Below are positions 5,516-5,961 of a stretch of 64,000 bases of DNA, one piece after another (position 1 is the stretch's first letter; each line of letters starts with the position of its first letter). Origin of the DNA: Capitulum mitella (taxonomy: Eukaryota > Arthropoda > Thecostraca > Pollicipedomorpha > Pollicipedidae); contig CP099841.1 in the NCBI GenBank assembly GCA_030062745.1, positions 32,418,368 to 32,482,367 on the forward strand. Direction: 5' to 3'. A program made the translations under genes and the position numbers. The notes beneath the pieces were generated by a model, which saw nothing but the letters and a program-made list of their open reading frames with translations, did not search any database and was not told the origin of the DNA.

Positions 5516-5719
5516 CTCCTGGATGTCCCTGTTGGTGCGCGATTCGTGAGGCTCGTTGTACTCAGTGTATTTCAGCAGCACCTTGTCCATATCGGTGCTG
5601 GCGTATTGGAACAGCTTATTGGACGAGTTAAAGATGATGAGCGCAATCTCACAGTCGCACAGGACACTCAGCTCGTAGGCCTTTTTCATCAGGCCGAATT
5701 TGCGCTTAGTGAAGGTTAC
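5516..5719 (-). CDS. Mef2: Mef2 alternative exon 2b (MADS/MEF2 domain, vertebrate-like version)
   Basis: A second complete version of residues 19-86, again 204 nt and phase 0 at both ends. It runs from [13 protein letters not shown] to [10 protein letters not shown]. It is preceded by a pyrimidine-rich TGTTGTTCGCAG acceptor and followed by donor GTACGT (5515 downwards). It differs from exon 2a at 8 of 68 residues (T22, L28, N49, F55, R79, D83, I84, Q85) and at about 32 of 204 bases. Most of these residues, with [10 protein letters not shown], are those of vertebrate MEF2 proteins. No stop, frameshift or lost key residue is seen, and many differences from 2a are silent, so it is under protein-level constraint and is not a pseudo-exon. 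Only one of 2a and 2b can be used without duplicating the domain. The next exon is not in the window. Confidence 0.97.
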
Positions 5720-5757
5720 CTGCGAACAACAGGAGGCGGGTTAGGCCACTCGCTCAC
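5720..5757 (-). promoter_or_regulatory. Mef2: 38-nt spacer forcing mutually exclusive splicing of Mef2 exons 2a and 2b
   Basis: The spacer starts with the exon 2a donor GTGAGC and ends with the exon 2b acceptor GTTGTTCGCAG. It contains CCTAACCC, a good branch site with the branch A at 5741. That A is about 16 nt from the donor and about 21 nt from the acceptor AG. A donor this close to its branch point normally cannot assemble a spliceosome, so 2a cannot be spliced to 2b although both sites look functional. Thirty-eight nt is not a multiple of three, and retention makes a TAA at the 2b boundary. The steric model is inferred from known cases of close donor and branch sites; the sites themselves are read directly. 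Confidence 0.85.
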
Positions 5758-5961
5758 CTCGATGACATTTCGGTTGGTGAGGGACTCGTGGGGCTCGTTG
5801 TACTCCGTGTACTTGAGCAGCACTTTGTCCATATCGGTGCTGGCGTACTGATACAGCTTATTGGACGAGCTGAAGATGATGAGCGCGATCTCGCAGTCGC
5901 ACAGCACGCTCAGCTCGTAGGCCTTCTTCATGACGCCGAACTTGCGCTTGTTGAACGTTAC
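5758..5961 (-). CDS. Mef2: Mef2 alternative exon 2a (MADS/MEF2 domain, insect-like version)
   Basis: The exon encodes 68 residues (19-86), from [13 protein letters not shown] to [10 protein letters not shown]: the DNA-binding helix, the dimerising beta strands and the whole MEF2 domain. It starts after a branch-like CTAAC (A at 5980) and TTCCAG, and ends at GAG before the donor GTGAGC (5757 downwards). Length is 204 nt, phase 0 at both ends. Residues N22, V28, S49, Y55, L79, N83, V84 and I85 distinguish it from exon 2b; most match what I recall for fly MEF2. The cofactor-groove residues L66, Y69 and T70 known from MEF2 structures are present. Reading past its donor reaches a stop exactly at the start of exon 2b, so retaining the 38-nt spacer truncates the protein. 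It is the upstream member of the pair in transcription order. Confidence 0.97.

Follow-up and report, generated by a model that had tools for sequence, protein, structure and literature searches.

Mutually exclusive exons in MEF2 and other genes

Among the central regulators of muscle is MEF2. In vertebrate MEF2A, MEF2C and MEF2D, a choice is made between two mutually exclusive exons, alpha1 and alpha2, immediately after the MEF2 domain, and one of the alpha forms lacks a phosphorylation site that controls the choice of partner (PMC5852603). The location of these exons after the domain, as had been stated when the present locus was first annotated, is confirmed there. Much closer to the arrangement considered here is that of the shrimp Litopenaeus vannamei, in which mutually exclusive exons 2a and 2b feature among 17 MEF2 transcripts (PMC10051702). 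LvMEF2-I was found in all tissues tested and LvMEF2-II in some tissues and stages, and the two proteins have 428 amino acids each, so that the exons are probably equal in length (PMC10051702). Mutually exclusive exons that swap a DNA-binding and dimerisation region are known as well for another muscle-relevant factor, E2A/TCF3, with its E12 and E47 forms (PMC5852603), though this is a bHLH and not a MADS protein and no common descent is claimed. For the mechanics of exclusion the relevant models are rat Tpm1 and human OGDH exons 4a/4b, where the branch point lies too close to the upstream donor, at 41 nt and 25–41 nt respectively (PMC7969005), the steric limit from donor to branch point being about 50 nt (PMC7969005; PMC5740500).

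The barnacle (Capitulum mitella) MEF2 gene described below very probably has a mutually exclusive exon pair of its own, and this pair, like that of the shrimp, is a choice of coding exon 2 in a crustacean MEF2. From the exon number and the equal protein length we infer that the two pairs may be the same. There are also differences from these relatives. One MEF2 gene is reported in the shrimp whereas the barnacle genome has two, and the vertebrate choice, though also one of mutually exclusive MEF2 exons, falls after the domain, where the barnacle has a single exon 3 resembling alpha2. Compared with Tpm1 and OGDH, the crowding is more extreme in the barnacle in that the entire intron is 38 nt, with a branch-like A, recognised by its motif, at base 17. 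Literature searches for mutually exclusive MEF2 exons (MADS domain, arthropod, crustacean), whose coverage excludes most subscription papers, yielded, judging from titles and the openings of abstracts, the shrimp report alone as being on point; within the same coverage, and judging by titles, no paper on barnacle MEF2 gene structure was found.

Layout of the barnacle gene

The window, the whole 64,000-nt stretch of DNA that was analysed, corresponds to C3:32418368-32482367 of its own genome (C numbers denote contigs), and the gene runs on its minus strand:

8845-8792, minus strand: MEF2 coding exon 1, residues 1-18 (MGRKKIQISRITDERNRQ), phase 0, donor gtgagt, as read and translated
8791-5962, minus strand: intron 1, 2830 nt, between exon 1 and exon 2a
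5983-5979, minus strand: CTAAC, branch-point-like, with its A at 5980, 19 nt before 2a (motif scan; putative function)
5961-5758, minus strand: exon 2a, residues 19-86, 204 nt, phase 0, the diverged type
5757-5720, minus strand: intron between 2a and 2b, 38 nt
5744-5740, minus strand: CTAAC with its A at 5741, the 17th base from the 2a donor (motif scan; putative function)
5719-5516, minus strand: exon 2b, residues 19-86, 204 nt, phase 0, the vertebrate-like type
5515-1, minus strand: start of intron 2, which totals 5677 nt
Start at C3:32418205, 163 nt outside window base 1, same gene: exon 3, 156 nt, single (ALNKKEHKNGGLSPESPEPEDFLAPRAEPKYSKIEEEYQVLMQRSSQLNGNR)

The coordinates, the phase and the intact splice sites originally given for two 204-nt exons specifying residues 19-86 were all confirmed. 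Exon 2a is free of stops, preceded by AG (acceptor ...ccgttccag) and followed by GT (donor gtgagc); exon 2b likewise is stop-free between an AG (acceptor ...gttcgcag) and a GT (donor gtacgt). The pair therefore has the sequence hallmarks of tandem exons, being neighbouring and homologous, equal in length and phase, and bounded by intact splice sites. Pyrimidines occupy 15 of 20 positions of the 2b acceptor tract versus 12 of 20 for 2a. In the short intron, CTAAC (bases 14-18, its A 22 nt before 2b) is the sole YTNAY site. CTAAC occurs twice in all 2830 nt of intron 1, and the motif scan of its last 400 nt before 2a gave 3 YTNAY sites besides the CTAAC. The GC content of intron 1 rises to 0.71 in the bin 6400-6201 and 0.80 in the bin 6200-6001, the other 200-nt bins having 0.43-0.60.

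Upstream of the start codon, at 8845-8900, is a pyrimidine-rich run ending in cag at about 8897. Because this stretch is acceptor-like, there may be a 5′ non-coding exon farther upstream of exon 1. At the other end of the gene, further exons, including a C-terminal MEF2 exon, lie 3′ of exon 3 on C3. Exon 3 matches the vertebrate alpha2 peptide and not the alpha1 peptide. Within 90 kb there was no sign of another version of it; a query with exon 3 itself returned self and, besides this, a single weak match attributable to chance (E 0.23). A choice of the vertebrate alpha1/alpha2 style was considered for this gene and rejected, just one version of the exon that follows residue 86 having been found in those 90 kb.

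The two exons compared

The gene belongs to the MEF2 subfamily of MADS-box factors. Pfam SRF-TF is matched by 2a with 72.1 bits and by 2b with 71.9 bits (cut-off 26), and each exon has 18 PDB matches, of which the best 14 belong to chains of MEF2A-D or of MEF2 chimeras, with the MEF2 chains aligning over residues 19-86. With human MEF2A, represented by a chain among these PDB matches, 2b is identical at 66/68 residues (97%) and 2a at 59/68 (87%); the two exons agree with each other at 60/68. They differ (2a/2b) at residues 22 N/T, 28 V/L, 49 S/N, 55 Y/F, 79 L/R, 83 N/D, 84 V/I and 85 I/Q. At 7 of these 8 places human MEF2A has the 2b letter, and at residue 85 it has V. Lysines 23, 30 and 31 and arginine 24 are identical in 2a and 2b.

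Fly Mef2 probably has N22, V28, S49, Y55, L79, N83 and I85, the 2a letter at 7 of the 8 places, and with this sequence aligns better to 2a (93%) than to 2b (87%). When the text of the literature was searched for residue strings, the 2b-type string was found in one paper and the 2a-type string in none.

A second MEF2 gene

Searching the barnacle's own genome (477,042,490 bases in 16 contigs) with 2b gave three places, which were 2b, 2a and C2:31482120-31482323, and the same three were found with 2a. In bacterial, archaeal and viral contig collections no relatives of 2a or 2b were confirmed, as expected. The third place belongs to another MEF2 gene:

C2:31477783-31501636, plus strand: second MEF2 gene, five exons recognised, in the expected order (exons 1-3, then counterparts of two later exons)

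The one exon 2 of this gene has the 2b letter at 8/8 places and in addition A44S and I47M of its own, in a stretch that is otherwise shared, so that among 2a, 2b and the C2 exon 2 the 2a residue letters are peculiar to 2a. When introns 1 and 2 at the C2 locus were searched for a remnant of a 2a-type exon, the matches were at chance level only, and the whole-genome search with 2a revealed none. The C-terminal MEF2 exon present on C3 was not found at the C2 locus, and hence the second gene may be incomplete.

At codon positions 1 and 2, bases shared by 2b and the C2 exon against 2a number 10 sites, those shared by 2a and C2 against 2b number 0, and those shared by 2a and 2b against C2 number 4. 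The third positions distribute otherwise: 7 for 2b with C2, 13 for 2a with C2, 11 for 2a with 2b, and 2 sites at which all three differ. Synonymous sites thus appear to be near saturation or mixed by conversion, which is why they do not give the order of the two duplications.

The two MEF2 genes may have arisen in the whole-genome duplication of barnacles, with which they would fit. Tblastx of the two loci (144 kb against 110 kb) revealed no shared neighbour: its 1976 matches were mostly to repeats, and the one match that stood out after repeat filtering (43%, 68 aa) lies on opposite sides of the genes. [For C. mitella, a main Hox cluster and a small second Antp/Ubx cluster, on Chr3 and Chr7, have been described following whole-genome duplication (PMC11331182). 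A search with the Antp homeodomain (E <= 1e-20) gave 8 places, 6 of them within 0.5 Mb at C1:6402022-6894457 and the others an Antp-like pair within 40 kb at C10:28055367-28093746, which are 97% and 90% identical to Antp; likened by Antp similarity, the C1 cluster and C10 pair resemble the published arrangement. SRF-type MADS pieces also occur on two chromosomes, at C7:9898998-9905371 and C9:3716516-3716596, and the SRF gene is perhaps duplicated.]

Constraint on the two exons

Exons 2a and 2b differ at 32/204 bases and 8/68 residues. By codon position the base changes are 5/5/22 (chi-square P = 1.2e-4), and by the NG86 method dN is 0.063 and dS 0.90, giving a dN/dS of about 0.07. When neutral evolution was simulated 5000 times, each run with 32 changes, the residue changes had a mean of 21.8 and a minimum of 13, none of the 5000 having 8 or fewer, and 3272 acquired a stop. 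Because the residue changes are so few for this dS and against the neutral expectation, both exons are, as judged from their sequences, constrained and retained as coding sequence.

The alternative that survives best, though it is unlikely, is that of one exon in constitutive use beside an intact-looking relic, rarely or never used. The second gene manages with a single exon 2 of the 2b type, from which 2a departs at all 8 of the differing places; at 7 of the 8 it departs from human MEF2A and 2b jointly. Both points would favour this alternative. However, at a dS of about 0.9 an unused exon should have gathered far more amino acid replacements, and probably stop codons, than the 8 changes and 0 stops in 2a. 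Both sets of splice sites and a branch-like site have been kept, and in the shrimp both forms are used in transcripts.

That the pair is an artefact of assembly or a very recent 242-bp tandem duplication, as Tandem Repeats Finder might suggest in reporting a 242-bp repeat of 1.8 copies, is scarcely credible given the 87% of matches in that repeat, the third-position location of 22 of the 32 exon changes, and a dS that indicates neither assembly doubling nor recent duplication and is comparable to the values against the second gene (0.73 for 2a, 1.38 for 2b). Synonymous divergence rules out recent duplication.

Splicing of the pair

Returning to the preferred reading of two functional alternatives, 2a and 2b are probably used exclusively in transcripts, with exon 1 spliced either to one or to the other. 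The 38-nt intron would be too short for U1 and U2 snRNPs to be engaged on it simultaneously. Its donor-to-branch distance, with the branch point predicted from its motif, is that of the steric-hindrance class (below about 50 nt), and this holds whichever branch point is used because the whole intron is only 38 nt. Since the intron is under the steric limit, joining of 2a to 2b should hardly be possible, and a transcript that had taken 2a would therefore have to continue to exon 3. Introns near 40 nt are nevertheless spliced in some animals, which counts against steric exclusion.

The ratio of 2a to 2b would be set by competition between acceptors, 2b having the better pyrimidine tract and 2a the advantage of first position. 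Acceptor competition under the influence of tissue factors is the default reading. Neither an unusual RNA fold nor an RBFOX cluster was found. A single 532-nt fold around the pair had a z of -0.55, with 28/100 shuffles as good. The RBFOX motif GCATG is absent from the 38-nt intron and from the 400 nt at the end of intron 1, and occurs once in the 400 nt with which intron 2 opens. Over these stretches neither gave a signal.

Inclusion of both exons in some transcripts, to give a protein with a doubled domain, is an alternative that the reading frame would permit. Both being of phase 0 and 204 nt long, the exons when joined are open over 136 codons, and so splicing itself is the sole barrier to their joining (retention of the 38-nt intron, on the other hand, brings a stop codon into frame where 2b begins). 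Such inclusion is very unlikely: the 38-nt intron, with its branch-like A at base 17, is under the cited limit, a doubled 19-86 segment would be a misfit for the MADS fold, and the shrimp pair is reported to be exclusive.

Possible consequences of the choice

If the two exons are alternatives, the gene would produce two MEF2 proteins with the N-terminal arm and the tail in common and with a domain that is regulated differently. The N-terminal arm from exon 1 and residues K23, R24, K30 and K31 are DNA contacts. A new DNA motif is unlikely because that arm is common to both forms and those four residues are unchanged, and for the same reason the original expectation that choosing 2a or 2b would alter the DNA-binding or dimer surface is conjectural. 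Its further suggestion of mixed 2a/2b dimers is plausible. The likeliest consequence, at the level of a guess from the sequences, would be a change in binding affinity, control by phosphorylation or choice of partner.

Two of the differing residues have a bearing on this. Residue 22, T in 2b, is N in 2a, which so lacks a phosphorylatable residue at this place, and it is the putative equivalent of S162 of SRF. Phosphorylation of SRF S162 is stated to block binding to smooth-muscle promoters and to promote binding to Fos (PMC5411712). Residue 83 is N in 2a and D in 2b. D83 is the main site of MEF2B lymphoma mutations, accounting for 27/69, and D83V was reported to weaken DNA binding and activation (PMC4918335). 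A conflicting view, cited in a review, is that D83V permits escape from corepressors and leads to a hyperactive state (PMC12522983). The published MEF2B data concern valine and not the asparagine of 2a.

Age and significance

It had been thought that a choice inside the MADS/MEF2 domain was not a known phenomenon. The choice is well supported by the sequence here, but it is not without precedent, and because exons 2a and 2b of L. vannamei, with transcripts, are already published (PMC10051702), the barnacle pair is a clear new example and not a new phenomenon. What is added here is the anatomy of the exon pair, its probable mechanism and the 2b-only paralogue, of which no description was found in the literature searched. 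Exon choice within a DNA-binding domain would allow one gene to provide two versions of that domain, a control point unlike that of the vertebrate alpha exons, and with its 38-nt intron the gene is a small and convenient system in which to test steric exclusivity.

There is perhaps an even chance that the pair is old, a switch in which crustaceans and insects alternated the vertebrate-like 2b with the fly-like 2a, and of which flies would have kept 2a, the second barnacle gene 2b and the gene in the window both. The basis for this is the probable fly Mef2 sequence and the shrimp report, the comparison with database sequence being to human MEF2A. Were it so, the single Mef2 of the fly would be what is left of a former pair, and work on arthropod MEF2 done with the fly form would cover one of two ancestral proteins. 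Residues 22, 79 and 83-85 would then mark the places at which a domain that hardly varies is adjusted in evolution.

Remainder of the window

Apart from the MEF2 exons, no Pfam match over cut-off was found in the 18 ORFs scanned of the 214 listed at >=100 aa, and the window has no tRNA or Rfam match. Large GC-rich minisatellites are present at 26425-27171, 1945-2261 and 51640-51972, one example having 13.6 copies of a 55-bp unit.
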